DNA of 33,172 nucleotides from contig CALEVZ010000021.1 of assembly GCA_937924755.1 (NCBI GenBank), forward strand, positions 1 through 33,172, in the 5' to 3' direction. Under the pieces are notes generated by a model. The model saw only the letters and a program-made list of their open reading frames with translations. It was not told the origin of the DNA and did not search any database. Both the position numbers and the translations under genes were made by a program. Shown here piece after piece: positions 3,755-32,593 of the stretch. This DNA is from an uncultured bacterium (lineage in GTDB: Bacteria; Acidobacteriota; Thermoanaerobaculia; Thermoanaerobaculales; Thermoanaerobaculaceae). How positions within the stretch are numbered: position 1 is the first letter of the stretch; each line of letters opens with the position of its first letter.

Positions 3755-3770
3755 AGCGGCGGACGCCGCT
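3755..3770. terminator. Possible hairpin between convergent genes
   Basis: AGCGGCG-GA-CGCCGCT forms a GC-rich inverted repeat between the STAS gene and the convergent FHA gene, touching the latter's stop codon. It has no T-tract on either strand, so termination by it is uncertain. Confidence 0.3.
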
Positions 3771-4509
3771 ATCGCACCCGGAAAGTCATGGAAACGAAGC
3801 CGAAGCGCACCTCATCGCCGTCGCGCAGTTCCACCTCCACCCCGGGGCGCAGGCGCTGCCCGGCAACGAAGGTGCCGTTGGCGGTGCCCATCTCCTCGCG
3901 CAGGAAGAAACGCCCATCCCGGCAGGCGATGCGGGCGTGCCGCCGGGAGGTGGAGCGGCGATCGTCCACCGGCTTGAGGTCGACCTCGGGCTGAAAGCCG
4001 GTGGTGGCGTCGAACCGACCCACGGAGATCTCTCCCTCCGCCGGCACCACGTACTCGCTGCCGTTGGGGTGAATCAGCTTTGCGGCCGTCATCGTTACCG
4101 CCCCCATGGGCTGGGTGGGAGGTTCCCCACCCTCGATCCCCGGCGGCGCATCCACGTGAGCGGATCCCTGTTCCCGCAGCCGCCGGGAGAGCTTGCGCAG
4201 CATGCGCACGGGGATCTCGGGGTTGGCGTGAATCATCTGGTCGAAGGTGGACTCGTCGATGCGCAGCAGCATGCAGTTCGTGGCGGCGCGCGCCGAGGCG
4301 GTGCGCGGCAGCTTCTCCAGCAGCGCCATCTCGCCGAAAAAATCCCCCTCCTCCAGCAGCGCCAGACGTATCTGACGCCCCTCGACCTCGCGGAAGATTT
4401 CGACCTCGCCCTCTTGCACGATGAACATGGCGTCGCCGCTGTCACCCTCGCGGAAGACGAAATCACCCGCCTGGACGCGAACGGAAAACTCGCTGCCGTC
4501 GTCGGTCAT
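3769..4509 (-). CDS. Cyclic-nucleotide-binding domain plus FHA domain protein
   Basis: This 246-residue protein has two signalling domains. Residues ~8-115 are a cyclic-nucleotide-binding domain with the phosphate-binding cassette FGEMALLEKLPRTAS (58-72). The key Glu60 and Arg69 are kept, so cAMP or cGMP binding is plausible. Residues ~140-246 are a forkhead-associated domain with Gly164-Arg165, Ser188-Arg-Arg-His191 and Asn211 (GTANGTF), the residues that hold phosphothreonine. There is no DNA-binding domain, so it probably works as an adaptor. Start: ATG at 4509 with GGAGGAGGGG just upstream; the open frame extends further but lacks a better signal. It is divergent from the sigma-54 activator, with 106 nt between them. 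Confidence 0.88.
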   Translation of the reverse strand: MTDDGSEFSVRVQAGDFVFREGDSGDAMFIVQEGEVEIFREVEGRQIRLALLEEGDFFGEMALLEKLPRTASARAATNCMLLRIDESTFDQMIHANPEIPVRMLRKLSRRLREQGSAHVDAPPGIEGGEPPTQPMGAVTMTAAKLIHPNGSEYVVPAEGEISVGRFDATTGFQPEVDLKPVDDRRSTSRRHARIACRDGRFFLREEMGTANGTFVAGQRLRPGVEVELRDGDEVRFGFVSMTFRVR

Positions 4510-4615: not shown

Positions 4616-5761
4616 GTGGTGCCCAAGTCCACCGCGGAACCGCTGCTCGGTCGGTTGCCGGGAGTGCCCCTGCCTCCCGCCCCGGCTGCCTGCATGACAC
4701 CGGCAGCGCAGTTGACGGCCCAGCTGTCCTTCGCCGAGTGGGGCGCCAACCGGACGGTGGTGATGATCGGGCACTCTTCCCGTTTACAGGAGCTGCATCG
4801 CAAGGTGGAGAAGGTGGCTCCCTTCGACGCCCCGGTGCTGATTACCGGCGAGAGTGGCTCCGGCAAGGAGTCCCTGGCCCAGGCCATCTACCTCCTGAGC
4901 CCGCGCCGGGGCAAGCCCTACGTGGCCGTGAACTGCCCTCAGTTCCAGGAGGGAAACCTGACGGTGAGCGAACTATTCGGACACCGCAAGGGCTCCTTCA
5001 CCGGCGCCACCGCCGACCGCAAGGGGTGCTTCGAGCTGGCCGACCAGGGGGTCCTCTTTCTCGATGAGATCGCCGACCTGCATCCGTCGGCCCAGATGAT
5101 GCTGCTGCGGGCCCTCGCCTACGGTGAGTTCCAGCCGCTCGGGGCGGAGACGACCCGCGCCGCCAACGTGCGGGTGGTGGCGGCCTCCAACCGCACGCTC
5201 GAGGATCTGCGCGGACAGCCGAGCTTTCGCGAAGATCTCTTCTTTCGCCTGCGCTACTTTCACATCCACGTCCCCGCCCTGCGCGAGCGCGACCGGGATT
5301 GGGCCCTGCTCACCGAGTACTTTCTCCACCGGCTGGAGGCGCAGTACGGCATCTCCAAGCGCTTTTCCCCGGCCTCCCTGCGATTGCTGGAGAAGTATTC
5401 CTGGCCGGGCAACGTCCGCGAGCTGGTCAGCCTGGTGACCTTCGCCTATGCCATGTCGGACGGCGAGCTGATCGAGCCCAAGGATTTCTCCGCCATGCTC
5501 GAGATACCCTCCACCGCCCCCCGCGACTCGCCCGAACAGCTCCTGCTGGAGGTGATGAACGGCACGGTGGACTTCTGGGACGGCGTGCACAGGCGGTTTC
5601 TAGCCCGCGACCTCAACCGCACCCAGGTGCGGGAGATGGTGCGACTTGGCCTGCAGCGCTGCGCCAACTCCTACCGCCAGCTCCTCGAGCGTATTCACTT
5701 GCCGGGTAGCGACTACCAGCGATTCATGGACTTCCTGCGCCACCACGATCTCAAGCCGTGA
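4616..5761 (+). CDS. Sigma-54-dependent AAA+ transcriptional activator (enhancer-binding protein)
   Basis: This 381-residue protein remodels sigma-54 RNA polymerase by ATP hydrolysis. Walker A is GESGSGKE (78-85), the sigma-54 contact loop is GSFTGA (126-131, a functional variant of GAFTGA), Walker B is LFLDEI (147-152), and the arginine region is FREDLFFRL. Only ~47 residues precede the AAA+ domain: there is no receiver, GAF or FHA domain, so the input signal must come from a partner or from expression level. The C-terminus has no classical Fis helix-turn-helix. It ends in a segment with NSYRQLLERI and DYQRFMDFL, which I recall from other acidobacterial activators. Start: GTG at 4616 with GGGGAG upstream. 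It overlaps the HAD-kinase gene by 4 nt and likely drives the promoter at 7363. Confidence 0.92.
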   Translation: MVPKSTAEPLLGRLPGVPLPPAPAACMTPAAQLTAQLSFAEWGANRTVVMIGHSSRLQELHRKVEKVAPFDAPVLITGESGSGKESLAQAIYLLSPRRGKPYVAVNCPQFQEGNLTVSELFGHRKGSFTGATADRKGCFELADQGVLFLDEIADLHPSAQMMLLRALAYGEFQPLGAETTRAANVRVVAASNRTLEDLRGQPSFREDLFFRLRYFHIHVPALRERDRDWALLTEYFLHRLEAQYGISKRFSPASLRLLEKYSWPGNVRELVSLVTFAYAMSDGELIEPKDFSAMLEIPSTAPRDSPEQLLLEVMNGTVDFWDGVHRRFLARDLNRTQVREMVRLGLQRCANSYRQLLERIHLPGSDYQRFMDFLRHHDLKP

Positions 5762-7263
5762 ATCAGCTCCCTCTGCGCGCCATTGCCTTCGACCTCTACG
5801 GCACCCTCCTGGCGCTGGATAACCCCCTCCTGCACCGGGAGATCCCGAGGTTGTTTGGGGTCCCGGGACGGCGCTGGCTGCACCTGGTGCGCCACACCTT
5901 GCTCCGCCGCCCTTTCCCAGATACCGCTGCCATGGCCGCCGCCATCGCCGAGGAACTGGGCGCCCCCGCTCTGGCGCCCCGATGCGAGCAGCTCCTGCGA
6001 GCAGAGGTGGCCTCCGCGCGGCTGCTGCCAGGCGTGGTGACGACCCTGCAGTTCCTCGCCCGGCGCGGCTTCAAACTGGGGCTGATCTCCAACCTCTCCA
6101 GTGCCCACACCGCACCGCTGGAGGCTTCCGGGCTGGCTGACCTTTTCGACGCCAGCGTCCTCTCCTGCCGGGACGGGGTGGTCAAACCGCAAGCTGAGGC
6201 GTATGTACTGCTCTGCCAGCGGCTGGATTTGCCGCCGGAGCAGGTGCTGCTGGTGGGGGATTCCCTGGCCAACGACGTGCTCGCCCCGGCGGCGCTGGGG
6301 ATGCCGGTGGCCCGGGTGGGGCCGGGGAGCGGCGGAGATGACCTTGCCAGCGTGGCCGAGCTGGGGTGGCGACAGCTGACCGGGGACTTGCCCCTCACCC
6401 CCCTCCTCGCCCCCGGCGTGGCAGTTCCTTCGCCCGAGGGCGCGGCCGTCATCACCCGGCTCCAACCCGTCGGGGAGGACGAGCGAGGGCGGTACAACCT
6501 GGTGTGCCGGGTGAGCGCCCATCTCGACGCCAGTCCAACCAGGGAACTCACCTTCTTCGCCAAGCGCTACCTGGACCCGGCCTCCGCTCGCCTGGAGGCG
6601 CTGGGCCATCGGCTGCAGTTCCTCTACGACCTGCCCGCCTGCCGAGCGGTCGTGCACGGCGAGGAGGAATTCATCCTGCTGGTCTCCGCCGCGCCCGGGC
6701 TGCCCCTCTCCGGCGCGCCGGATCCGCCAACCGCCTTCGAGATCGGCCGGCAGTTCGCCTTCGGCTACGTCTTCGCCAACGCCGACCTGCGGCCGCGCAA
6801 CATGCTGCTGGATGCCACCGCCTCCCCGCCGCGGATCACCACCTTCGACCTGGAGCACCTGCTGTTGAACCTGGCCGTGGAGGTCGCCCAGTTGCCCGAC
6901 CCCCTGGATCCGCACGCCATCGACGCTCTGCCCCGGCAGCACCTGAGCAGCCTGGTGAAACGGCGGGTGCTCTCCCCTCGCACCCTGCCGCGGGCGCGGG
7001 GCGAATTCTTCGACGTGCGCCAGGCCCCCCAGGAGGTCACCCGGGCGTTCGGGCGTGGCTTCCTCGACCAGTACGAGCTGCTCAAGTCGGGCCGACGACA
7101 GCTGCTGGAGCTGGTGCGGGAGCAGGTCTACACGCCGCCGTATCTGATTGCTGGCACCCGCGCCTACCGGCGCGCCCTGGCGGCCATGGATCTGGAGGAT
7201 CTCGAGGGACGCCTGGCCGAGGACCCGGTGGACGTACTCGCTTTGCTCCTCGCCCCACGATGA
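5758..7263 (+). CDS. HAD hydrolase fused to a kinase-like (APH/LanM-type fold) domain
   Basis: This 501-residue protein has two enzyme-like halves. Residues ~7-205 are a HAD-family domain with FDLYGTL (Asp12; the second Asp is replaced by Tyr14, as in haloacid dehalogenases), SNLSS, the Lys of VVKPQ, and GDSLANDV. Residues ~225-480 look like a protein-kinase/aminoglycoside-kinase fold: FFAKRY gives a candidate ATP-binding Lys269, NADLRPRN gives Asp343 with the Asn partner, and TFDLEH gives Asp364. No membrane segments are seen. The GTG start overlaps the activator stop (GTGA), so the two are co-translated. The lanthipeptide precursor follows after 191 nt. The substrate is unknown; it may act on a protein of this locus. 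Confidence 0.75.
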   Translation: MNQLPLRAIAFDLYGTLLALDNPLLHREIPRLFGVPGRRWLHLVRHTLLRRPFPDTAAMAAAIAEELGAPALAPRCEQLLRAEVASARLLPGVVTTLQFLARRGFKLGLISNLSSAHTAPLEASGLADLFDASVLSCRDGVVKPQAEAYVLLCQRLDLPPEQVLLVGDSLANDVLAPAALGMPVARVGPGSGGDDLASVAELGWRQLTGDLPLTPLLAPGVAVPSPEGAAVITRLQPVGEDERGRYNLVCRVSAHLDASPTRELTFFAKRYLDPASARLEALGHRLQFLYDLPACRAVVHGEEEFILLVSAAPGLPLSGAPDPPTAFEIGRQFAFGYVFANADLRPRNMLLDATASPPRITTFDLEHLLLNLAVEVAQLPDPLDPHAIDALPRQHLSSLVKRRVLSPRTLPRARGEFFDVRQAPQEVTRAFGRGFLDQYELLKSGRRQLLELVREQVYTPPYLIAGTRAYRRALAAMDLEDLEGRLAEDPVDVLALLLAPR

Positions 7264-7285
7264 TGGAGGGCACGCTCCGGCCCCA

Positions 7286-7301
7286 TGGAGCCGTGGCTCC
7301 A
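7286..7301. promoter_or_regulatory. Palindrome, candidate activator binding site (UAS)
   Basis: TGGAGCCGTGGCTCCA is a perfect inverted repeat. It lies about 88-103 bp before the predicted start site of the sigma-54 promoter, the usual distance for an enhancer-binding protein site. Binding is inferred. Confidence 0.45.
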
Positions 7302-7343
7302 GGACGCTTTCACCCCCCAACTCCCACTACGGAGACAGCAGCA

Positions 7344-7361
7344 CTTTCTCGATTGAGAGAG
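7344..7361. promoter_or_regulatory. Second inverted repeat just upstream of the -24 element
   Basis: CTTTCTC-GATT-GAGAGAG is a near-perfect inverted repeat (one G-T pair) that ends one base before the -24 box. It could be a repressor or second activator site, or chance. Confidence 0.35.
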
Positions 7362-7362
7362 A

Positions 7363-7378
7363 TGGCACGCTCTTTGCT
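7363..7378 (+). promoter_or_regulatory. Sigma-54 (-24/-12) promoter of the lanthipeptide operon
   Basis: TGGCACG-CTCT-TTGCT matches the sigma-54 consensus TGGCACG-N4-TTGCW at every position. The invariant GG (7364-7365) and GC (7376-7377) have exactly 10 bases between them. The expected start is near 7389, giving a ~66-nt leader before the precursor ATG. A sigma-54 activator gene lies 1.6 kb upstream. Confidence 0.87.
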
Positions 7379-7387
7379 CAAAGAGCC

Positions 7388-7438
7388 ACTGCGTTGCGCG
7401 CAACTCAACGCAGTAGAATTCCCCGAGCACACCTCGGG
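7388..7438 (+). promoter_or_regulatory. 5' leader stem-loops of the precursor mRNA
   Basis: Two hairpins fill the predicted leader. ACTGCGTTG pairs with CAACGCAGT (7388-7396 with 7406-7414), starting at the predicted +1. CCCGAG pairs with CTCGGG (7422-7427 with 7433-7438), just before the ribosome binding site. An alternative palindrome GTTGCGCGCAAC (7393-7404) competes with the first. A 5'-end stem often stabilises mRNA; that role is inferred. Confidence 0.5.
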
Positions 7439-7454
7439 AGAAAAGGAGACAGAA

Positions 7455-7802
7455 ATGGCTGAACTGACTCGTGGAGAAGTGCAGGACCTTATCGCTGGTT
7501 TCGCCATCAAGAACCCGGAGTACCGCCAGGCGCTGCTGGCCAAGCCGCGCGAGGTGGTGGGGGCGCAGATGGGGACGGAAATCCCGCCCTCGGTGAAGGT
7601 GACCATCATCGAGGAAAAGCCCGACGAGTTCCACATCATCCTGCCCTACCAGCCCAAGGAGGGCGAGGAGCTGTCGGACGCCGATCTCGAAGCGGTGGCC
7701 GGCGGCGGCAAAAAGGGCGGCAGGACCGACACCACGTACAAGTGCGACGTGAGGTCGAGCGGCTTCGGCACGCACGTGGAAGTCAACGCCCGCGTCTTCT
7801 AA
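7455..7802 (+). CDS. Lanthipeptide precursor with NHLP (nitrile-hydratase-like) leader
   Basis: This 115-residue peptide has an ~84-residue leader of the nitrile hydratase alpha-subunit-like type. The leader shows NPEYRQALLAKP, IPPSVKVTIIEEKPDEFHII and LSDADLEAVAGG. Cleavage by a C39 peptidase is expected after Gly84, leaving a 31-residue core rich in Gly and Lys that ends in VF. The core has four Thr, two Ser and one Cys (core residue 13), so at most one lanthionine or methyllanthionine ring can form and other sites could remain dehydrated. A second Gly-Gly follows five residues later (GKKGG), an alternative cut site. Start: ATG at 7455 with AAGGAG 7 nt upstream. It follows the sigma-54 promoter and precedes lanM. 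Confidence 0.9.
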   Translation: MAELTRGEVQDLIAGFAIKNPEYRQALLAKPREVVGAQMGTEIPPSVKVTIIEEKPDEFHIILPYQPKEGEELSDADLEAVAGGGKKGGRTDTTYKCDVRSSGFGTHVEVNARVF

Positions 7803-7829
7803 CTGATCCGAATATCGACACACCCGCAC

Positions 7830-7859
7830 CCCCCGGGCACCCGTTCGGGAGCCCGGGGG
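7830..7859 (+). promoter_or_regulatory. Strong hairpin between precursor and lanM that covers the lanM ribosome binding site
   Basis: CCCCCGGGC (7830-7838) pairs with GCCCGGGGG (7851-7859), and the loop itself pairs CCC with GGG. The 3' strand contains the GGGGGAG (7855-7861) that should be the lanM Shine-Dalgarno. There is no T-tract, so attenuation of translation or protection of the precursor mRNA end seems likelier than full termination. Confidence 0.6.
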
Positions 7860-7869
7860 AGCTTCCTTC

Positions 7870-10800
7870 ATGAAAAGCATCTCCGCCCCACCGCACCTCG
7901 CCGACGCCCGGCCAGGCCCAGGGCCGGACAGTCGTGCTCTGGTGGAACTGGTCGCCGCCCGCGCCATGTCCCTGGAGGAGGTGCTGTCCGGTCGCCGGTA
8001 CGGGGAGACCGTCGCCGGCCGCGAAGCCGCAGGCTTGCTGGAGCGCTGGAGCCGCATCTTTGCCGGCGGCGATCGCGCCGCCCTGCAGCGCCGGCTGGCC
8101 TGGGACGGGCTCGATGAGCGCCTCATCGCCGCTGCTCTGGACGGTCCCCCGGCCCCGGCGATCCCGCCCCACCTGCACGTCCTCCCGGAAATCCTTACCG
8201 AGCCCGTTTTCCAACCCCCCCCGTCCAACGGGGAGGAGGTGCCCTTTGCGCACCTGGTCATCCCCTGGGTGCACCATGCCCGCCGGCGCCTCGCCGCCCT
8301 TCTCCCGAACCTCGCGACGTTGGTCGCTCCGGCAGCGCTGCAAGTCGCCGAGCGGCACCTGCTGGAGCAGCTCTCGGCGGCGGCGACCATGGCCCTGTAC
8401 CAGGAATTTGAAGCCTTTCGCTCCTCCTACTACCAGTCCAACTCCGTGGTCAGCGGCACCCTTCCCGGAGACCACGTCTACCGCGCCTTCGTGGACAGCT
8501 TGCGGGGCCCGCGGCTGGCCGCCTTCCTGGCCGCCTACCCGGTGCTGGCCGTCCACCTCTGCCTGCTGTCCTGGCAGTGGACCGAGGGGATGGCTGAGTT
8601 GGTCATCCGGCTGGCGAACGACCTCGTAACTCTGACCGAATCGTTCGCCGGCGGTGACGCTCTCGGCCCGCTGGCGGCCCTGGAGATGGGCCTGTCGGAC
8701 CGCCACGCCGGTGGCCGCCAGGTGGCCGCTCTCCGCTTTGCCCGGGGCATAGAGGTGATCTACAAACCCCGCGACGTCACCCTGGAGGCGGCGTGGGCGG
8801 AGCTGGTGAGGTGGCTCGAGAGGGAGGGGCTGGACTGCGCCCCGCCCGCACCGCGGGTGCTGGCCCGCCCCGGCTACGGCTGGGTGGAGAGAGTGGGGGC
8901 GGAAGAGGTCAGCGACGAGGCCGACTTTGCCCGCCGCGCCGGGGCGCTGGTGTCCCTGGCGTGGCTGCTTGGCGGCATCGACCTGCACGAGGACAACGTC
9001 ATTGCCACCGCCCACGGCCCCGCGCTGATCGACGCCGAGGCCCTGCTGCAGCCCCTGCGCACCGACCTCACCCGCGCCGCGGCCGGCTCGATCCTGGCCA
9101 CCGGTCTGCTCACCTTCCCCATCATCACCGCCCAGGGGTCACTGGTGGACGCCGGGGGTCTGGTGGGGGGGGCCAGGTCCCCGTCGCCGCACCGACAGTG
9201 GGAGGACGTCAACACCGACGCCATGCGGCCGGTGTCGCGGCCCTCGCCGGCGCGCTCGCCCGCCAACCTTCCCCGCACCGAAGGACAACCGTGGAGACCC
9301 ACCCGGCGTCGGGCAGAGCTGGAAGAAGGTTTCGGGGAGGCCTACCGCTTCTGCCTGGCCCATCGTCACCGGCTGCTGGATCCCGGCGGACCGCTGCGGC
9401 ACTTCTCGTTGGCCGAGCCGCGATTGGTTTTCCGCCCCACCGAGTCCTACGTGCGCCTGCAACGGGCGCTCTTCGCCCCCGCCTACCAACGGCTGGGGGT
9501 GGAGCGCAGCATCGCCCTGGACGCCCTCAACCGGGTGTTCGCCACCTCGCCCCGACGCCCTCCCTTGTGGCCGCTGGTGGCCGAGGAACGTGCTGCCCTG
9601 GAGCGGCTCGACATCCCTCGCTTCACTATCTCGGCCACCGCCGAGGCGCTGGTCGCCGCCAGCGGCGAGGTGATCCCCGGCGTGGTGGAGCGCTCGGGGT
9701 GGGCCAGCCTGGCTAACCGCCTGCAGGGGCTGAGCGAGCAGCAGCTGGCGCACTACCTCCACCTACTGCAGGTGTGCGCCGCCACCCAGCCCCTGGCCGA
9801 CGAGGAGGCATGCCCAGGCGATGCCGAGCGGGAAGCCGCCCTGGCCGCCTGGCGCGAGGCACTGCGGGCTGCTGCCGTACGCTGTGGGGAAGAGGTCGAG
9901 GACGCCATCTTCGCTGACCGGATCGCACCGGCGCTCGCCCAGTGGGGAAATCTCGACGCCGCCGACCTCTACCACGGCCTGCCCGGGGCGGCGCTGCTCT
10001 TTGCCGCCCTCCAGCAGGCCACCGGCGAGCCCCGCTGGCGTTCCCGGGCCAGAGCCTGCTGGCAAGCCGTCCTTTCTCAGCCGGAGCCGCCGGAAAGCCT
10101 CGGTGCCTGTGAAGGCGTGGGCGGACGCCTCTACGCCCTCGCCCTGCTGGCCGCCCTCTGCGACGACGCCGACGCCGCCGACGCCGCCCGGCGCCTGCTC
10201 GCCGCCTTCCCCCGACAGGCCATCCGGGGCGATGCGCGGCTTGACGTCCACGCAGGCAGCGCCGGAGCGGTCCTGGGCTTGCTGGCCGCTTTCGCCATGC
10301 TCGGCGAAAAAAGGGCCGTCGCGCTGGCCCAGGAGTGCGCCCAGCACCTGCTAGCGGCCCAGCGCCCCGAGGGGGGCTGGAGCCCCGCCGGGGCCGCCGC
10401 CCCCGGGTTTGCCCACGGCGCCGCCGGCATTGCCTGCGCCCTGGCGAGGCTGGCCGCGGTCACCGGCGACGCTCGCCTGGCTGAGGCGGCCCGCCGCGGC
10501 TTCCAGTTCGAGTTCTCCCTGTTCGACACCCGTCGACAGGGGTGGCGAACCCCGGTCCACAACCCCGGCAGCGTCAGTCGCCACGTGTCCATGAACGCGT
10601 GGTGCAACGGCGCGCCGGGGGTGGCCTTGGCCCTCGCCACGTCCGCACTACCCGCCTCTGAGCGGGTCGGCCTTGAGCAGGCTCTGGCCGTCACCCGCGC
10701 CTGCGGTCTGGGTGGACTTGATCACCTCTGCTGTGGTAATCTTGGCATTATCGATGTGCTGCTAACAGGCGGGCAGTGGCTCGGGCAGGAGTCTCTGATA

Positions 10801-11010
10801 GGCGCGGCTACTGCAAGGGGGATCGTGGTTTTGCGACGAGCGATGGGCAGCGACACCTTCGCCGTGGAGGAAGCGGTGGCAACACCGGGCGTGAGACTGG
10901 GACTGTTTCACGGTCTGGCGGGCGTCGGCTACCAGGCGTTGCGCCTGGCGGCTCCGGCGACGTTCCCCTCCCTGCTGGCCTTCCTCCCGCCGGGAAACGG
11001 CCAGCCATGA
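7870..11010 (+). CDS. lanM: LanM class II lanthipeptide synthetase, CCG type
   Basis: This 1046-residue bifunctional enzyme phosphorylates and dehydrates Ser/Thr, then adds Cys thiols. The N-terminal dehydratase has a kinase-like core with IYKPRD (Lys299) and GGIDLHEDN (Asp371) followed by LIDAEALLQP. The C-terminal LanC-like cyclase has DLYHGLPG, the His of FAHGAAG, and the zinc ligands Cys912 (WCNGAPG) and Cys954-Cys955 (LCCGNLG). Two adjacent cysteines instead of Cys-His place it with the CCG group typified by ProcM, known for relaxed substrate choice. Length is normal for LanM. The start ATG follows GGGGGAG at 8-nt spacing. Its stop overlaps the GNAT start (ATGA). Confidence 0.94.
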   Translation: MKSISAPPHLADARPGPGPDSRALVELVAARAMSLEEVLSGRRYGETVAGREAAGLLERWSRIFAGGDRAALQRRLAWDGLDERLIAAALDGPPAPAIPPHLHVLPEILTEPVFQPPPSNGEEVPFAHLVIPWVHHARRRLAALLPNLATLVAPAALQVAERHLLEQLSAAATMALYQEFEAFRSSYYQSNSVVSGTLPGDHVYRAFVDSLRGPRLAAFLAAYPVLAVHLCLLSWQWTEGMAELVIRLANDLVTLTESFAGGDALGPLAALEMGLSDRHAGGRQVAALRFARGIEVIYKPRDVTLEAAWAELVRWLEREGLDCAPPAPRVLARPGYGWVERVGAEEVSDEADFARRAGALVSLAWLLGGIDLHEDNVIATAHGPALIDAEALLQPLRTDLTRAAAGSILATGLLTFPIITAQGSLVDAGGLVGGARSPSPHRQWEDVNTDAMRPVSRPSPARSPANLPRTEGQPWRPTRRRAELEEGFGEAYRFCLAHRHRLLDPGGPLRHFSLAEPRLVFRPTESYVRLQRALFAPAYQRLGVERSIALDALNRVFATSPRRPPLWPLVAEERAALERLDIPRFTISATAEALVAASGEVIPGVVERSGWASLANRLQGLSEQQLAHYLHLLQVCAATQPLADEEACPGDAEREAALAAWREALRAAAVRCGEEVEDAIFADRIAPALAQWGNLDAADLYHGLPGAALLFAALQQATGEPRWRSRARACWQAVLSQPEPPESLGACEGVGGRLYALALLAALCDDADAADAARRLLAAFPRQAIRGDARLDVHAGSAGAVLGLLAAFAMLGEKRAVALAQECAQHLLAAQRPEGGWSPAGAAAPGFAHGAAGIACALARLAAVTGDARLAEAARRGFQFEFSLFDTRRQGWRTPVHNPGSVSRHVSMNAWCNGAPGVALALATSALPASERVGLEQALAVTRACGLGGLDHLCCGNLGIIDVLLTGGQWLGQESLIGAATARGIVVLRRAMGSDTFAVEEAVATPGVRLGLFHGLAGVGYQALRLAAPATFPSLLAFLPPGNGQP

Positions 11011-11972
11011 CGGTCACCTTCGCCCTGCTGGAGCCGCCCGTCGCCCCGTCGTTCGAGGGGATGACCTTCCCGGCCTATCGCCATCTCCTCGCCCTCGCGC
11101 CAGCTCCCACGCTGGTGCACGAGCCCACCGCTCGCCAGGTGCAACCGCTGGCGATGGCCGCCCTCCGGGAGCGCGAACCCGCAGCCCTGGCCCTGGTGGG
11201 CCTGCCGCTGGAGGGGGACGAGCCGCCAGAGCTCCTCTCCCTCTACGTGGTCCCGGCTTCCCGCGGGCAGGGGGTGGGCCGCGCCCTGCTGGCCGCCCTG
11301 GAAGGGGAGATCGCCAGCCGCGGGTTCGCCTCGCTGGGCACCGTTTTCACCGCCTCGGCGCCGGGCAGTCCGGCCTTCTCCCGGGTGCTGGCGGCACGTG
11401 GCTGGACCACCCCGCAGCCGCGCACCCTGCTCATGCGCTTTTCCTACGAGCAGGCGCAGCAGTTCCCCTGGCTGAATCGCTACCCCGTGCGGGAGGGGTG
11501 CGAGATCTTCCCCTGGCGGGAGCTCACCCCGGCCGAGCGACAGCAACTCATCGGCTCCCAGCGGGAGAGGGGATGGATCGCCCAGGATCTGGTGCCGTGG
11601 CGGTGGGACGAGCATGGCTTTGAACCCGTCACCTCGGTGGGCATGCGCTCTCCCGAAGGGGTGGTGGGGTGGGTGATCAACCACGCTCTCGACGAAAACA
11701 CCCTGCGCTTCACCTGCAGCTACATCCGCAAGGACTACGGCCGGCGGGGACGCATCCTGCCGCTTTATTCCGAATCCATCAACCGCATGAAGGAGGGGGG
11801 GTTCACCCGCTGCTCCTTCGTTGCCCCGTTGCACCACGCCACCATGGCGGCGTTCGTGCGCCGCTGGATGGCGCCGTGGGCGGGAACCTTGCAGGAAACC
11901 CTAGGCTCAACCAAGAGCCTGGTCAGCCCGGCAGCCACGCTGTCAGCGGCTATGGCCCCACCGGAGGAGTGA
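11007..11972 (+). CDS. Tandem GNAT-type acyltransferase, probable lanthipeptide tailoring enzyme
   Basis: This 321-residue protein has a clear GNAT fold in its N-terminal half. The acetyl-CoA loop is LYVVPASRGQGVGRALL (RGQGVG at 86-91), followed by an SPAFSRVLAARGW region. The C-terminal half, around residues 170-300, resembles a second degenerate GNAT unit (SYIRKDYGRRGRILPLYSES at 238-257). GNAT enzymes transfer an acyl group from CoA to an amine. The ATG overlaps the LanM stop by 4 nt, which argues for coupled synthesis and a role in the same pathway. Possible targets are the Lys residues of the core or the new N-terminus, but self-immunity by acetylation is also possible. It is cytosolic, with no signal peptide. 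Confidence 0.8.
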   Translation: MTVTFALLEPPVAPSFEGMTFPAYRHLLALAPAPTLVHEPTARQVQPLAMAALREREPAALALVGLPLEGDEPPELLSLYVVPASRGQGVGRALLAALEGEIASRGFASLGTVFTASAPGSPAFSRVLAARGWTTPQPRTLLMRFSYEQAQQFPWLNRYPVREGCEIFPWRELTPAERQQLIGSQRERGWIAQDLVPWRWDEHGFEPVTSVGMRSPEGVVGWVINHALDENTLRFTCSYIRKDYGRRGRILPLYSESINRMKEGGFTRCSFVAPLHHATMAAFVRRWMAPWAGTLQETLGSTKSLVSPAATLSAAMAPPEE

Positions 11973-11975
11973 AGA

Positions 11976-13931
11976 ATGAGGTGCCCTATGCGTTACCCGA
12001 TCATCGCTGCCATCCCCGCGGTGGTGGTGAGCCTGTCAGCCGCCGCTGCCGAGCCGCCCCTCCCCCAACCTGACTACCAGCCGCCACTGCTCTCCCAGCG
12101 CAGCATCCCCTTGCTGGAGGCCATCAGGATCACGCTGGAACACGATCCGGCCATCAAGCTGCAGGCGGAAACTGTGCGCCAGCGCCGCGGCCTCGCCCAG
12201 CAGGCCGCCGGCTTGTTCGACCTCACCCTACTCGGTACGGCGAGCTACGAGTATGTGCAGTCGGAGTTTTCCACCCGCGAGCGTGAAGCGATGCAGAAAA
12301 AGCGGGACGACATCCGCAAGGACCTGGAAAAGACGGAGAACCGCCTGCGGGATTTGCAAGAGCGGTTGGACGAAATCCTCGCCAACCGCGACGCCCTGCT
12401 GGAAGGGCGCGAGCCGCCAATCCGCTTCGACGACCCCCTGCTGGAGGCGCAGTTCCAGCTCCTCTACCAGCGCTACCTGGAGGCACCGCCGGAGGAGAAG
12501 CAGCAGATTCTCAACGATCTGTTGGCCATCCTGCGTTCCAAAGAGCTGCAGGTGCGCGCCGACATGGCCGACGATCTGGCGAGCGCCGCCGAAGCCCGGG
12601 AAAAGCTGCGCAAGCTTGGCACCGTGCCGCGCATCCAGCGTTCCTACGAGGGTGCCCTGTCGCTGCAACTCACCAAGCTCTACCGCAACGGCATGAGCTT
12701 GGCGCCGTTCGTCGACCTGTCCGGCGGCGGCCTGTCCTACCAGGGCAAACCAAAGGATGAGGAGTTCGGCGGCCCCGGCGTCAAGGACTCCTACAACGCC
12801 CGCATCGGGTTTTCCGTGGGCATCCCCCTGGGCCGCGGCCGGGGACTGGCCTCCGCCGGCGCCGTCGAGCAGGCGGCGATGCTGGACGTGGCCGCCAGCC
12901 TGGACGCCCTCACCCACGCCGCCGCGGTGAGCGTGCTCAACACCACCCTGGCCTACTGGAGCGCCCTGGCGGCGCAGCAGGTGGTGGAGGTGCACTCCCG
13001 GTCAACGCAGCTCCAGAGCCAGCTCAAGGAGCTGGCGGAAGTGCTCATCCAGGCCGACGAGCTGCCCCGCGTGGAGCTGGTACGGGTGCAGGCCCGGGAG
13101 GCGGAGGTACAGGCCCTCCTGGAGGGCTCCCGGCGGGCCGCCCACGAGGCACGCCTCGCCCTGGCCCGCACCATGGGTCTGGAGGTGCTGGCCACCACCG
13201 ATGCCCCCACACCTGAGGACGACTTCCCCGCCGTTCCTGCCCGGGTGGAGCTGGCCTGCGCCAACGCCAGTCAACTCGCTGCCGCGGCGCTCGAACGGCG
13301 CCTAGATTACCGCGCCGCGGTGCACCTACAAGAGTCGGGGAAGGTGCTCTGGCGGGCCGCCGCCATTGACCTGGCGCCGCGGGCCGACCTCACTTACTCC
13401 ACCTGGTACGGCGCCCTCGCCGAGGACAGTGACGTGCTGGAGGGCCTGAAAGGGGTCGCCAGCGGCCGCTGGGCCGGCCCCAGCGCTCGCCTTGGCCTCA
13501 CTTACGAGAAGCCCTACGAGAACAACGCTCAAAAGGGCAAGCTGGAGGTGGCCGCCGCCGGCTTCCGGCAGCGCGCCATCACCACCCGCGACCTGGAACG
13601 CATTATCAAGGCCTCCGTGGTGCGGGAGCTGGCCTCTCTGCGAGAGGCGGCCCGGCAACTGGCGCGCACCGAGGAGGCGGTGGCGCTGCACCGGCAGGCG
13701 GTGGAGAACGAGATGGAGAAGCTGCGCATGGGCGCCGCTACGGTGATCGACACCATCCTCACCGAGCAGCGCTACGTAGATGCGCAGCTGTCGCTCATCG
13801 CCGCTCGCCAGCAGGTGGCGCAGATCCTGGCGCGCCTGCGCTACGAAACTGGAACGCTCGTCACCACCGACGCCGGCGGCGCTTTCGTAAGTCGGGACGA
13901 CCTGGGGGCGCTGCCGCCCCTGGGGGAGTGA
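11976..13931 (+). CDS. TolC-family outer-membrane efflux protein, copy 1
   Basis: This 651-residue protein has a signal peptide (cleavage near SAAAAEPP) and the helical repeats of the outer-membrane efflux family. It forms the outer-membrane tunnel of type I secretion. It is much longer than E. coli TolC. The extra part, around residues 90-215, is a charged coiled coil (for example KKRDDIRKDLEKTENRLRD). The block KLYRNGMSLAPF...GIPLGRGRG is shared with the next gene, showing a tandem duplication. Start: ATG at 11976 with GGAGGAG (11963-11969) overlapping the end of the GNAT gene; an ATG four codons in is also possible. It lies 3 nt after the GNAT stop, clearly in the operon. Confidence 0.88.
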   Translation: MRCPMRYPIIAAIPAVVVSLSAAAAEPPLPQPDYQPPLLSQRSIPLLEAIRITLEHDPAIKLQAETVRQRRGLAQQAAGLFDLTLLGTASYEYVQSEFSTREREAMQKKRDDIRKDLEKTENRLRDLQERLDEILANRDALLEGREPPIRFDDPLLEAQFQLLYQRYLEAPPEEKQQILNDLLAILRSKELQVRADMADDLASAAEAREKLRKLGTVPRIQRSYEGALSLQLTKLYRNGMSLAPFVDLSGGGLSYQGKPKDEEFGGPGVKDSYNARIGFSVGIPLGRGRGLASAGAVEQAAMLDVAASLDALTHAAAVSVLNTTLAYWSALAAQQVVEVHSRSTQLQSQLKELAEVLIQADELPRVELVRVQAREAEVQALLEGSRRAAHEARLALARTMGLEVLATTDAPTPEDDFPAVPARVELACANASQLAAAALERRLDYRAAVHLQESGKVLWRAAAIDLAPRADLTYSTWYGALAEDSDVLEGLKGVASGRWAGPSARLGLTYEKPYENNAQKGKLEVAAAGFRQRAITTRDLERIIKASVVRELASLREAARQLARTEEAVALHRQAVENEMEKLRMGAATVIDTILTEQRYVDAQLSLIAARQQVAQILARLRYETGTLVTTDAGGAFVSRDDLGALPPLGE

Positions 13932-13945
13932 GGGGGACCGACGCC

Positions 13946-15916
13946 ATGGCCTCGCGTCCGCGCACCCTTTCCATCGTTGCCCTGCTGCTGGCCCTGTCCG
14001 CCGTGGCCACCCCGGCGTGGGCCGGGCAGCGCCCCCCCGAACCCTTAAACCCCTATGCCCCCGTCACCCTGTCCACCCCCCGCCTCACCCTCCGCGAGGC
14101 CATCGACCTCGCCCTGGCCAACGACCCCGGCCTGCATCTGGCGCGGGAGCAGGTGACCGCCAGCCGTGGCAGCTTGCTTTCGGCCTCGGGAGCCTTCGAC
14201 ACAGTCTTCGCCGTCGGCCCGGCCTTCGAGCACCAGACCAGCGTCGTGGGGCGACCTGGGATGCGCAACCAGGAGCTGCTGCGCAACCTCTCCCGGGAAA
14301 TTGCCACCACTTTCCGGCTCATCGCCGACGACCTGCGCCGCCAGCTGGACCTGCAGGGCAACATCCCCCTCATTCAGTGTCCGCCGGGACTGGTCATCAC
14401 CATCGGCGGCGAGCCGGTCTGCCTGTCCAACCGCGAGCGGGCGCAGTGGGAGATCATAGAGATCATCACCCGCCGCCCGGAGCTGGAGCCGCAGCGGCGC
14501 ACCCTGGAGGAGGCGGCCCGCCGGCGCGCCGAGCAAATTGCCCTCATCCTCGATATCACCGCGCTGGCCAGCCGCGGCCTGCTGCGCACCATGGGGGTGC
14601 GCGCCACCCTGGAGGATCGCACCTCCATCGAGCTGCAGCTGTCGGCCGCCAAGCTTTACCGCAACGGCATCGCCGTCACCCCGCTCCTGGCTTTTTCGGG
14701 CAGCAAGGACAACTACCGCGGCAAGCGCCTGGACCCCACCTACGGCGGCAAGGGAAACCTCAACACCTTCACCTCCATTGCCGGATTGAGCCTGGAGGTG
14801 CCCCTGGGCAAGGGGCGGGGTGAGGCCGCCACCGGTGCCGCCGAGCGGGCGGCTCGGCTGAATCTCGCGGCCAGCCTGGAGAAGGAGGCCCACGCCGTCG
14901 CCGGGACCGTCCTGCGCACCCTGCTGGCCTACCTGGAGCTGGCCGCCGCCCAGGAGAAGCTGGAGCTCTTCACGGCTTCCGAGGAGCGGCAAGCCTCCCT
15001 GGTGGCCATGGGCGAGGCCCTCCAGAAGGCGGGCGAGCTGGCCGAGGCCGATCTCATTACCGTGCGGGCGCGCCTGGCCTCCACCCGCACCGCCGTTGCC
15101 CAGGCCTGGCAGAGTGTGGCCGAGGCTCGCATCGCCCTGGCGGAGACGATGGGGCTCGCGGTGGAGAAGCTGGAGGAGGCGCCACTGGCCGCCGAGATGC
15201 TACCGCCGCCCCCCGCGGAGAGTGAGCTGGACGCCTGGCGGCAGCAGCAGCTGGCCCAGGCGGCCCGCGCCCTCCGGGCCGACCTCAAAGCGGCTCATCG
15301 TCTCGAGGAGTCGGCGCGAGAACTCGCCGAGGCGGCCCGGCTGGATCTGCGGCGCTTGAGCACATTGTCCTTCCAGGCGTGGTACCAGGGGCTGTGGGAG
15401 GGCAAGAGCCCGAAAGACATGCGCAACGTGCTGGTGGGGTGGGAACGCGCCCTATTCGGCGGCCAGGTGGGACCCTCGGCCCGCCTGCTGCTCACCGTGG
15501 AGTGGCCGTTCGCCAACAACGTCGCCCGCGGCCGCTACCTGGAGGCCCGCGCGCTCTATCACTCCGGCGGCATCCAGGCCCGCAACCTGGAACGGGTGAT
15601 CGCCGGGCGGGTGGAAGAGCTCACCGGGGCAGTGCTCAAGGCCCGCGCCGAGGTGGCTCGAGGGCAGGCGGCGGTGGAACTCTACGACCAGCTCATCGAG
15701 ACGGAGGTGGAGCGCTTTCGATTGGGGGAGGCCACCGCCGCCGACCTCGTGCTCACCGAGGAGAACCGCATCGGCGCCGCCCTTGCCCTGGTCGCAGCCC
15801 GTCAACGCCTGGCCACGGCGGTAGCGCAGCTGCGCTTCGAGCTGGGCACCCTGGTGCGCTACCGCATCTCTAACCAGCGGGTGGTGGTGGAGGGCATCCT
15901 CCCCGCCGCCGGATGA
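13946..15916 (+). CDS. TolC-family outer-membrane efflux protein, copy 2
   Basis: This 656-residue paralogue of the preceding protein has a clean signal peptide that ends in TPAWA before GQRPPEP. The conserved core KLYRNGIAVTPLLAFSG...VPLGKGRGEAATGAAERAA aligns with copy 1, and both end in a RLRYETGTLV/QLRFELGTLV helix. The inserted domain differs: here it holds a Cys pair (CPPGLVI and GGEPVCL) in place of the charged coiled coil. I chose ATG at 13946, preceded by AGGGGG, over the overlapping GTG at 13928 because it gives a standard signal peptide. The two copies may form separate or mixed trimers. Confidence 0.87.
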   Translation: MASRPRTLSIVALLLALSAVATPAWAGQRPPEPLNPYAPVTLSTPRLTLREAIDLALANDPGLHLAREQVTASRGSLLSASGAFDTVFAVGPAFEHQTSVVGRPGMRNQELLRNLSREIATTFRLIADDLRRQLDLQGNIPLIQCPPGLVITIGGEPVCLSNRERAQWEIIEIITRRPELEPQRRTLEEAARRRAEQIALILDITALASRGLLRTMGVRATLEDRTSIELQLSAAKLYRNGIAVTPLLAFSGSKDNYRGKRLDPTYGGKGNLNTFTSIAGLSLEVPLGKGRGEAATGAAERAARLNLAASLEKEAHAVAGTVLRTLLAYLELAAAQEKLELFTASEERQASLVAMGEALQKAGELAEADLITVRARLASTRTAVAQAWQSVAEARIALAETMGLAVEKLEEAPLAAEMLPPPPAESELDAWRQQQLAQAARALRADLKAAHRLEESARELAEAARLDLRRLSTLSFQAWYQGLWEGKSPKDMRNVLVGWERALFGGQVGPSARLLLTVEWPFANNVARGRYLEARALYHSGGIQARNLERVIAGRVEELTGAVLKARAEVARGQAAVELYDQLIETEVERFRLGEATAADLVLTEENRIGAALALVAARQRLATAVAQLRFELGTLVRYRISNQRVVVEGILPAAG

Positions 15917-15965: not shown

Positions 15966-17111
15966 ATGCAAGGTAAGCTCTTCCGCAAGGCGGCGCTGGA
16001 GAAGCTCTCCTCCCCGGAGCGGCTGGACGTGATGATGAAGGTCACCTCGCCCAGCGGCTGGCTGGCCCTGGCGGCGCTGGGGTTCATCATCTTCATGGTG
16101 GTGGCCTGGAGCATCGTCGGCAGCATCGCCATCAAGGTAGACGGGCGCGGCATCCTGCTGCGAGGTGGCTCGGTTTACGAGGTCAACTCCATCGGCTCCG
16201 GCCGCCTGGTGGAGGTGGGTCCGAAGCCCGGTGACGTGGTGGAGGTGGGGCAGGTGGTGGCCCGCCTGGACCAGCCCGAGCTGCGCCTCAGGATCGCCAA
16301 CATGCGGGAGGAGCTGGCCGCCCTGGCGGGCCGCGGGGCGGAACAGCAGCGCGCCCAGGCCAACATCCTCGCCCGCTACCAGCGGCAGGCGGCGGAGCTG
16401 CGCGAGAAGATCGCCGTGCAGGAGCAGATGGTGGCCCGCGGCCTGCTCACCCGCACCCAGCTCATGCAGACCCAGCAGGAGCTCACCGCCACCGAGCAGG
16501 CCATGGCCAACATCCGCGCCACCGAGGCCGGCACTGGGCTGCGGGTGGACGAGGTGCGGCGGCAGATCGTCGAGCTCGAGAGCCAGCTCGCCTCCCAGTC
16601 GGAGGTGCGCAGCCCTTACGCCGGCCGGGTGCTGGAAGTGATGGTCAATCCCGGCGACCTGGTGACCGCCGGCAGTCGCATCCTGACCCTGGAAGACACC
16701 AAGGAGACCATTCAGGCGATTCTGTTTGTCCCCGCCTCCGAGGGCAAGAAGGTGCGGCAGGGGATGCGGGCGTTTATCTCCCCCTCCACCGTGCGGTCCG
16801 AAGAGTACGGCTTCATGCTGGCCGAGGTCAGGGACGTGTCCGACTTCCCCCTTACCCCCGAGGGGATGGTGCGGGTGCTGCGCAACCAGGCGCTGGCCCA
16901 GGAGCTGGCCGGCAAGGGGGCCCCCATCGCCGTGACCGCCATTCCCATCCCCGACCCCGGCACCGAGAGCGGCTTCAAGTGGTCCTCCTCCAAAGGGCCG
17001 CCGGTGCGGGTGTACTCCGGCACCCTGTGCTCGGGATCCATCCAGGTGGAGACCAAGCGGCCCATTTCCTACGTCATCCCCATCGCCAAGAAGGCGGTGG
17101 GGCTAGGCTAG
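15966..17111 (+). CDS. NHLM-type HlyD-family secretion adaptor (membrane fusion protein)
   Basis: This 381-residue protein links the inner-membrane ABC exporter to TolC across the periplasm. A single membrane helix lies at about residues 32-56 (WLALAALGFIIFMVVAWSIV). A split lipoyl domain follows (GSGRLVEVGPKPGDVVEVGQ ... SPYAGRVLEVMVNPGDLV), with a coiled-coil hairpin between the halves at ~105-205. The short cytosolic N-terminus and the C-terminal beta region match the NHLM secretion-protein family. Start: ATG at 15966 after AAAGGAGGT. It sits 49 nt after the second TolC gene and 9 nt before the peptidase-ABC gene. Confidence 0.9.
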   Translation: MQGKLFRKAALEKLSSPERLDVMMKVTSPSGWLALAALGFIIFMVVAWSIVGSIAIKVDGRGILLRGGSVYEVNSIGSGRLVEVGPKPGDVVEVGQVVARLDQPELRLRIANMREELAALAGRGAEQQRAQANILARYQRQAAELREKIAVQEQMVARGLLTRTQLMQTQQELTATEQAMANIRATEAGTGLRVDEVRRQIVELESQLASQSEVRSPYAGRVLEVMVNPGDLVTAGSRILTLEDTKETIQAILFVPASEGKKVRQGMRAFISPSTVRSEEYGFMLAEVRDVSDFPLTPEGMVRVLRNQALAQELAGKGAPIAVTAIPIPDPGTESGFKWSSSKGPPVRVYSGTLCSGSIQVETKRPISYVIPIAKKAVGLG

Positions 17112-17120
17112 GGGGTCCCC

Positions 17121-19346
17121 ATGGCCGCCCAACCCCAGGAGGCACCCCGCACCATCCCGCCGCCCCCTGCCCGCCGAGTGAAATGCCCGACCATCTTGCA
17201 GATGGAGGCGGTGGAGTGCGGCGCCGCGGCGCTCGCCATCGTCCTAGGCTACTTCGGCAAGATCGTGCCGCTGGAGGAGTTGCGCCAGGAGTGCGGGGTC
17301 TCCCGCGACGGCTCCAAGGCCTCCAATGTGGTGAAGGCGGCGCGGCGCTACGGGCTGCAGGCCAAAGGGCAGAAGTTCGAGAAGATCGAGAGCCTGTACG
17401 AGCTCAAGTTCCCCTGCATCCTGTTCTGGAACTTCAACCACTTCCTGGTGCTGGAGGGGTTCGGGCGGAAAGGGCAGGTGTACCTCTCCGACCCCGCCGA
17501 GGGACCCCGCACCGTCACCCTGGAGGAGCTGGACGCGTCCTTCTCCGGCGTGGTCCTGACCTTCGAAGTGGGGCCCGAGTTCAGCCCCTCCGGCGAGAAA
17601 CCCAGCATGGCGGCGGCACTCAGGCGGCGCCTGGAGGGCAGCGAGGCGGCGCTGGCCTTTGCCATCCTGTGCGGCCTCTTCCTGGTGGTGCCGGGGCTGG
17701 TGATCCCCACCTTCTCGCGGGTGTTCATCGACGAGTACCTGATCGCCGGGCGGCGCTCCCTGGTGACGCCGCTGATCGCCGGCATGGTGCTCACCGCGGC
17801 GCTGCGCATGGGGCTGACCTGGCTGCAGGAAACCTACCTACTGCGCATGGAGTCGCGACTGGCGCTCACCACTTCCTCACAGTTCTTCAACCATATTTTG
17901 CGTTTGCCGGTGTCCTACTTCGCCCAGCGGTTTGCCGGGGAGATCGGTTCGCGGGTGGAGATCAACGACAAGGTGGCCTCCCTCATCTCCGGGCGCCTGG
18001 CCACCACCGCCCTCGACTGCCTGCTGCTGGTCTTCTATGCCGTCCTGATGATGCTCTACGACGTGGTCCTCACCCTGGTGTGCATCGCCATCGCCCTCAC
18101 CAACATCGTTGCCGTAAAGCTGGTGGCGCGTCAGCGCACGGACGCCGCCCGCCGCCTGCTACAGGACTACGGCAAGCTCACCGGCACCGCCATGAACGGC
18201 CTGCGCATCCTGGAAACCCTCAAGGCTTCCGGCTCGGAGTCGGAGTTCTTCGCCCGCTGGGCCGGCTATCAGGCCAAAGCGCTGCGCTCCCAGCAGCAGC
18301 TCATGCAGCTGTCGGAGTTCATCAACGCCGTACCGGCCACGGTGTCCAGCGTCACCACCGCGGTGATCCTGCTTTTGGGCAGCCTCAAGGTGATGAACGG
18401 CGAGCTCACCGTCGGCATGCTCGTCGCCTACCAAAGCCTGATGGCGTCGTTCACCAAACCCCTCAATACCTTCGTGTCCTTCGGCGGGGCCGTGCAGGAG
18501 CTCGAGGCGGACATGGCGCGCCTGGATGACGTGCTGCGCTTCCCCGTCGACCCCCAGTACACCCGCGACGAGCGACCGTCCGTGGAGATCCTAAAGCGGG
18601 CCGCGCCGGCCCCGCGCAAGGAGATGATCAAGCTTTCGGGCGAGATCGAGCTGCGCGGCGTCACCTTTGGCTACTCCCCCCTGGATCCTCCGCTGATCGA
18701 GGGCTTCAGCCTGCACGTCAAACCGGGACAACGGGTGGCCTTCGTGGGGCGCTCGGGCTCGGGAAAATCCACCGTCTCCAAGCTGGTGACCGGGCTTTAT
18801 CGCCCGTGGAAGGGGGAGATCCTCTTCGACGGCATCCCCATGGACGAGCTGCCCACGGGGCTGCTGCGCAACTCCCTGGGTGCGGTGGATCAGGAGATCT
18901 TCCTGTTTGCCGGCACCATCCGCGAAAACGTCACCATGTGGGACTTTACCATCCCCCTCACCTCCATCACCGCCGCCTGTCGCGATGCGGCTATCGACCA
19001 CGACATCCAGACCCGCATGGGCAAGTACGACTCGCCGGTGGAGGAGCACGGCGCCAACTTCTCCGGCGGGCAGCGGCAGCGGCTGGAGATCGCCCGTGCC
19101 CTGGTGGGCAACCCGACCATCCTGGTGCTGGATGAGGCCACCTCGGCGCTGGACCCACCGACGGAACTGATGGTAGACGAGGCCATCCGCCGGCGGGGCT
19201 GCACCTGTATCATCGTCGCCCACCGCCTGTCCACCATCCGCGACGCCGACGAGATCATCGTCATGGACCGCGGCAAGATCGTCCAGCGCGGCACCCACGA
19301 CGAGATGAAGGACGTTCCCGGCCTGTACCGGGATCTCATCCACTAG
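17121..19346 (+). CDS. NHLM peptidase-ABC exporter (C39 peptidase, permease, ATPase)
   Basis: This 741-residue protein cuts the leader at the Gly-Gly site and exports the product. The N-terminal C39 peptidase has Cys33 (VECGAAALA), His107 (NHFLVLEG) and Asp124 (SDPAEG), so it is intact. Residues ~165-450 form the six-helix permease. The ATPase has Walker A GRSGSGKST (~541), signature FSGGQRQRLEIARAL, Walker B ILVLDEATSALD and the switch His in IVAHRLST. The match to the precursor's AVAGG site supports its role. It lies 9 nt after the adaptor gene and 9 nt before the second ABC gene. Confidence 0.94.
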   Translation: MAAQPQEAPRTIPPPPARRVKCPTILQMEAVECGAAALAIVLGYFGKIVPLEELRQECGVSRDGSKASNVVKAARRYGLQAKGQKFEKIESLYELKFPCILFWNFNHFLVLEGFGRKGQVYLSDPAEGPRTVTLEELDASFSGVVLTFEVGPEFSPSGEKPSMAAALRRRLEGSEAALAFAILCGLFLVVPGLVIPTFSRVFIDEYLIAGRRSLVTPLIAGMVLTAALRMGLTWLQETYLLRMESRLALTTSSQFFNHILRLPVSYFAQRFAGEIGSRVEINDKVASLISGRLATTALDCLLLVFYAVLMMLYDVVLTLVCIAIALTNIVAVKLVARQRTDAARRLLQDYGKLTGTAMNGLRILETLKASGSESEFFARWAGYQAKALRSQQQLMQLSEFINAVPATVSSVTTAVILLLGSLKVMNGELTVGMLVAYQSLMASFTKPLNTFVSFGGAVQELEADMARLDDVLRFPVDPQYTRDERPSVEILKRAAPAPRKEMIKLSGEIELRGVTFGYSPLDPPLIEGFSLHVKPGQRVAFVGRSGSGKSTVSKLVTGLYRPWKGEILFDGIPMDELPTGLLRNSLGAVDQEIFLFAGTIRENVTMWDFTIPLTSITAACRDAAIDHDIQTRMGKYDSPVEEHGANFSGGQRQRLEIARALVGNPTILVLDEATSALDPPTELMVDEAIRRRGCTCIIVAHRLSTIRDADEIIVMDRGKIVQRGTHDEMKDVPGLYRDLIH

Positions 19347-32478: not shown

Positions 32479-32593
32479 CGAGCCCGGAGCGGCGGCACTT
32501 TTCCAGGCGGCGCATCGAAATGCCTCCAACCCGCGCTCGACTGGTCCCTGACCCCACACCAGCGCGACCGGGGCGCGACTGGCCCTGGGGAAT

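Follow-up and report, generated by a model that had tools for sequence, protein, structure and literature searches.

A conserved lanthipeptide cassette of Acidobacteriota with a predicted sigma-54 promoter and its own candidate activator

Expression of lanthipeptide gene clusters is usually ascribed to two-component systems or to housekeeping promoters, and the class II lanthipeptide synthetases of the ProcM type are set apart as the CCG group. A dedicated sigma-54 activator serving an exported-product system is a feature of the PEP-CTERM/PrsR systems (TIGR02915). Furthermore, in Myxococcus xanthus, genes for polyketides and non-ribosomal peptides are established targets of sigma-54 and the activator Nla28 (PMC7910581). 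Here we analyze a stretch of 33,172 nucleotides (hereafter, the window; positions 1 to 33,172 of contig CALEVZ010000021.1, assembly GCA_937924755.1) from an uncultured bacterium of the family Thermoanaerobaculaceae (phylum Acidobacteriota, class Thermoanaerobaculia), in which the sequence TGGCACGCTCTTTGCT at positions 7363-7378 had been singled out (hereafter, the original prediction) as the -24/-12 promoter of a lanthipeptide operon with its own sigma-54 activator gene, a mode of control held to be rarely if ever described. In agreement with the latter point, no report of sigma-54 (RpoN) control of lanthipeptide, lantibiotic or NHLP loci was found in the titles and abstracts searched, a set outside of which most subscription papers lie.

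We propose, with a probability of roughly 90%, that the sigma-54 promoter TGGCACGCTCTTTGCT, together with an activator that would bind two upstream dyads and answer to a partner protein, drives the genes for the precursor, modification by LanM and export of a one-ring class II lanthipeptide. The details of the original prediction hold in the sequence: the GG (7364-7365) and GC (7376-7377) of the element are separated by exactly 10 bases, the element agrees with the consensus TGGCACG-N4-TTGC(A/T) at 12 of 12 positions, the gap to the ATG of the NHLP precursor (7455) is 76 nucleotides against the 77 or so that had been estimated, and an AAA+ activator gene with a GSFTGA loop lies upstream in the same direction (Table 1). 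The element is the sole full consensus match in the window and one of 3 in the 3.35-Mb genome, and none of 500 shuffles of the 200 bp 5' of the precursor ATG attains the same score. Taken alone, the consensus match is nevertheless weak to modest evidence because sites with one mismatch are hardly more common in the genome than those of a reversed control pattern (37 and 33, respectively). The genome encodes a single RpoN (439 bits), and no Rfam element was found at the promoter.

The case for the promoter is strong because the element is conserved across genomes. Relatives were located by LanM and NHLP searches, followed by comparison of gene neighborhoods, which revealed a cassette with a common gene order: a cyclic-nucleotide (cNMP)-binding and FHA protein, the AAA+ sigma-54 activator, the NHLP precursor, LanM, a GNAT protein, two outer-membrane efflux proteins (OEPs), HlyD, a C39-ABC protein and an FHA-ABC protein. 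The cassette is present in at least 23 genomes besides that of the window; it was located in 22 other genomes of the class, in all of which the activator is seen, in G098, where the upstream part is off the contig, and in G484, from another class of the same phylum; the promoter could thus be examined in 24 genomes, including that of the window. Comparison with related genomes, which the original prediction had suggested as a check, bears it out: a -24/-12 element scoring 9-12 of 12 precedes the promoter-proximal precursor gene in 24/24 cassette loci, at 51-142 bp from the start codon. Given that the site for each locus is the best one in 200 bp, controls are needed; the per-locus frequency in shuffled sequences is 0 to 0.05, and none of 10 NHLP genes outside the cassette has a GG...GC core at a score of at least 9, although one scores 9 without the GC (Fisher p 8e-9 for 24/24 versus 0/10). 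All 24 elements share the T, GG, A and TGC, and pairwise identity reaches 80% in the element columns, compared to 32% in the 4-base spacer and 28% in the flanks, which indicates that the element has been kept while its surroundings have not. Moreover, in the two genomes with two precursor copies each (G020 and G091), the element is repeated before each copy. The near-equal genomic frequencies of the one-mismatch and reversed patterns would be expected if the element were a chance match and a housekeeping promoter drove the cassette; however, chance does not readily account for a site that recurs in every cassette locus amid unalignable flanks and is missing from the other NHLP genes, nor was any sigma-70-like site found within 7200-7900, so that we give this explanation next to no weight.

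Upstream of the -24 element, the cassette loci contain paired dyads of the form TGGAG-N6-CTCCA, mostly near ATGGAGCCNNGGCTCCAT, about 70-160 bp before the -24 element. Of 22 loci, 17 contain such dyads in tandem, with a score for the pair of 17-20 of 20 and a spacing of 20-22 bp, approximately two turns of DNA, and pairs of this score are almost absent from the remainder of the same loci; in G020, two perfect dyads are spaced by 32 bp. Sigma-54 activators typically act at enhancers composed of tandem dyads that are separated by two helical turns and lie upstream of the -24 element. Promoter conservation, co-occurrence of the activator, the paired dyads and the presence of rpoN together support the original prediction that sigma-54 runs the operon.

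The dyad type and the C-terminal motif of the activator change together, which provides the best evidence for binding of the dyads by the C-terminal domain. In four genomes (G088, G109, G104, and G108), a different palindrome, of the TCGCGCC type, takes the place of the dyad, e.g., GAGTCGCGCC-GG-GGCGCGACTC, and in the first three of these, the activator ends in YKRFMGFLxHHRLQP as opposed to the usual YQ(R/K)xMDFLRHHxLKP, a change that sits in the last predicted helix. The activator of G108, which is encoded on another contig and was inspected only after this rule had been set, reads YKRFMGFLRNHRLQP, as predicted. G107, G106 and G133 have the usual motif, and the promoter and dyads of G107 (TGGCACGGAGCCTGCC and TGGAGCCCTGGCTCCA), also checked after the rule was set, are as expected. 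We infer from this coupled change that the activator probably binds the dyads via its C-terminal domain.

The DNA-binding domain of bacterial enhancer-binding proteins is usually a Fis-type helix-turn-helix (HTH) domain (PF02954). Several observations weigh against the proposed scheme: the C-terminal domain of the activator belongs to no Pfam family, gave no significant fold match in the PDB and aligns weakly with the Fis-type HTH in profile comparison; G484 retains the promoter, with weak dyads; the coupled change involves four genomes of one family, and in the AAA+ tree, which is weakly resolved, the variant group needs about 2 changes, so that support is moderate; the control by the cNMP/FHA protein discussed below is suggested by gene neighborhood alone; and transcription, binding and product are all read from sequence alone. 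The lack of a recognized DNA-binding fold, in particular, could mean that either the cNMP/FHA protein or some other regulator occupies the dyads, and that the activator acts from solution or elsewhere. This appears unlikely given that the change in the dyads tracks substitutions in the last helix of the activator itself and that the layout is the one usual for sigma-54 activators.

The GSFTGA and Walker motifs are invariant across 18 activator orthologues, the AAA+ part matches NtrC1, FleQ, ZraR and PspF, and five helices are predicted with high confidence in the C-terminal domain. This domain is matched in full (E < 1e-34) in 22 of 147 genomes of the class, and in G028 the copy is cut by the contig end; the NHLP cassette is present in all 23 of these genomes. 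Further sigma-54 activators throughout the phylum contain weaker relatives of the domain, which is thus probably older than the cassette. Many other proteins of the phylum, some of them within very long reading frames, also contain relatives of the domain.

Because sigma-54 activators can act on one another's promoters and about a dozen clear domains of this type are encoded in the genome, the promoter might depend on sigma-54 and yet have another of these proteins, rather than its neighbor, as the main regulator. We consider this very unlikely, since the neighboring activator gene is restricted to this cassette and since the dyads and its C-terminal motif have changed in concert. A search for the regulon of the dyad, allowing up to 2 mismatches to ATGGAGCCNNGGCTCCAT, found no other occurrence in the 3.35-Mb genome; the circuit looks dedicated to one promoter because such a dyad is found once in the genome.

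Under the scheme that we favor, transcription of the precursor gene and of the LanM and export genes that follow it would start at the sigma-54 promoter. The activator is predicted to bind the two dyads by its C-terminal helical domain and to form a ring, the intervening DNA would loop, the GSFTGA loop would touch sigma-54 and ATP hydrolysis would drive promoter opening; the cassette would remain silent until the activator is active. Lacking a sensor domain itself, the activator is probably controlled by another protein that holds or frees it. The divergently encoded cNMP/FHA protein appears to be the best candidate because of this lack of a sensor and because its gene is present in most of the loci, where it adjoins the activator gene; such a protein could combine cyclic-nucleotide and phosphothreonine signals. 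We considered and rejected the possibility that loci without a separate gene encode the cNMP/FHA protein fused to the activator, as the long reading frames there hold no such domain. The FHA domain is present in both this putative regulator and the second ABC protein, pointing to phosphothreonine signaling in the system.

The precursor is the single NHLP gene in the genome, and it, the HlyD adaptor and both ABC exporters score above the curated cut-offs (TIGR03793, 03794, 03796, and 03797). The dehydratase residues of LanM are kept (D277, H279, K299, D371, H373, N376, D388, and E390), with the same spacing as their equivalents in CylM (PMC4550811). The core peptide (7707-7802 and its counterparts in relatives) contains one invariant Cys, followed 7-12 residues later by Thr, or by Ser in one genome, and its end, often VE(I/V)xASLF, is also conserved across genomes. 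This pattern is consistent with one lanthionine or methyllanthionine ring, so that the cassette most likely yields a class II lanthipeptide whose single conserved ring joins Cys to Thr/Ser and which leaves the cell via the NHLP C39/ABC/HlyD/OEP machinery. Bacteriocin cores usually vary; conservation even at the end of the core suggests a conserved target or a structural role. We tentatively suggest, while considering it somewhat less probable than the opposite, that the cassette is a conserved signaling or envelope-peptide system rather than a bacteriocin cluster, in which a one-ring, conserved-core lanthipeptide would be governed by a dedicated sigma-54 activator that binds DNA by an uncatalogued domain and reads the cyclic-nucleotide and phosphothreonine state via the separate cNMP/FHA protein. 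The hairpin between the precursor gene and lanM (Table 1) is likely a partial terminator or a stability element, and may hold the precursor mRNA above the lanM mRNA in abundance.

Among the relatives, the precursors most similar to that of the window are those of loci L050, L051, L053 and L049 (genomes G003, G006, G009, and G001), in which LanM is much more diverged (best E about 1e-25 to 1e-48), with the catalytic residues kept. The leader at L036 (G015) contains an internal duplication, with LVMPYVPKEGE occurring twice. As for the remaining genes, the HAD hydrolase gene that separates the activator from the promoter is found in about two thirds of the cassette loci; the second half of its product appears kinase-like by eye (NADLRPRNMLL...FDLEH), and Pfam names the HAD part only. 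Farther downstream, the window encodes a winged-helix (OmpR-type) DNA-binding domain fused to WD40-like PD40 repeats (30983-32551).

Table 1. Features of the predicted circuit and of the associated cassette, in positions of the window
Feature	Position	Strand	Evidence and remarks
Divergent cNMP-binding and FHA protein	3769-4506	-	PF00027, PF00498; probable start ATG 4506; candidate regulator of activator
Sigma-54 AAA+ activator without N-terminal sensor domain	4616-5761	+	PF00158, 194 bits; GTG 4616, more likely ATG 4694
GSFTGA loop of activator	4991-5008	+	Sequence
C-terminal domain of activator, all-helical, proposed enhancer-binding	5504-5758	+	Co-variation with enhancer
HAD hydrolase with kinase-like C-terminal half	5758-7263	+	PF00702; kinase-like part by eye
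Distal enhancer dyad TGGAGGGCACGCTCCG	7264-7279	+	9/10; 99 bp before -24 element
Proximal enhancer dyad TGGAGCCGTGGCTCCA	7286-7301	+	10/10; 77 bp before -24 element, 22 bp after distal dyad
Sigma-54 -24/-12 promoter TGGCACGCTCTTTGCT	7363-7378	+	Consensus match and conservation; start of transcription predicted near 7389
Ribosome-binding site AAGGAG	7443-7448	+	Sequence
NHLP-leader lanthipeptide precursor, 115 aa, GG cleavage site, one-Cys core	7455-7802	+	TIGR03793, 70 bits
Strong G+C RNA hairpin between precursor and lanM, no T-run	7830-7859	+	-30.1 kcal/mol, z -3.1
LanM class II lanthipeptide synthetase, CCG-type zinc site (C912, C954, C955)	7870-11010	+	TIGR03897, 576 bits, cut-off 304
GNAT acetyltransferase-like protein, conserved in cassette	11007-11972	+	PF00583
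Outer-membrane efflux protein 1	11976-13931	+	PF02321
Outer-membrane efflux protein 2	13928-15916	+	PF02321
HlyD-type adaptor of NHLP systems	15966-17111	+	TIGR03794, 341 bits
C39 peptidase/ABC exporter	17121-19346	+	TIGR03796, 1085 bits
Second NHLP ABC exporter with N-terminal FHA domain	19356-23048	+	TIGR03797, 884 bits

A dedicated, conserved sigma-54 circuit would imply that expression requires an ATP-driven activator. Such a requirement could explain the silence of clusters of this kind in the laboratory and hint at how to turn them on. In addition, the cassette offers an activator/enhancer pair with a natural change of specificity, and the conserved core raises the prospect of a lanthipeptide whose role may not be antibiotic.

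With respect to the known systems, the cassette shares with the Nla28 system the natural-product genes, the -24/-12 promoters and a tandem activator site upstream; in contrast, Nla28 belongs to the response regulators of two-component systems and has many targets, which include polyketide and non-ribosomal peptide clusters rather than clusters for ribosomally synthesized and post-translationally modified peptides, and most of its sites lie inside genes (PMC7910581), whereas the activator described here lacks a sensor domain, is encoded within the cluster and has an enhancer that occurs once in the genome. The precursor leader, the HlyD adaptor and both ABC exporters are those of the NHLP leader and export systems, to which the cassette adds the sigma-54 activator, the cNMP/FHA protein, an FHA domain on the second ABC protein, the GNAT protein and a conserved core peptide. 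The CCG-type zinc site of LanM and the Nif11/NHLP-type leader recall the prochlorosins and their ProcM-type synthetases; however, prochlorosins have many variable cores, compared to one or few precursors per cluster with a conserved core in the cassette. Like PspF and other sensor-less sigma-54 activators, the cassette activator consists of AAA+ and C-terminal domains only and is presumably controlled by another protein, probably the cNMP/FHA protein in this case; unlike them, it has a C-terminal domain outside the catalogued Fis-type family. Both the product and the activator family differ from those of the PEP-CTERM/PrsR systems. Each part of the cassette is of a known kind, and it is their conserved, dedicated combination that appears to be new.
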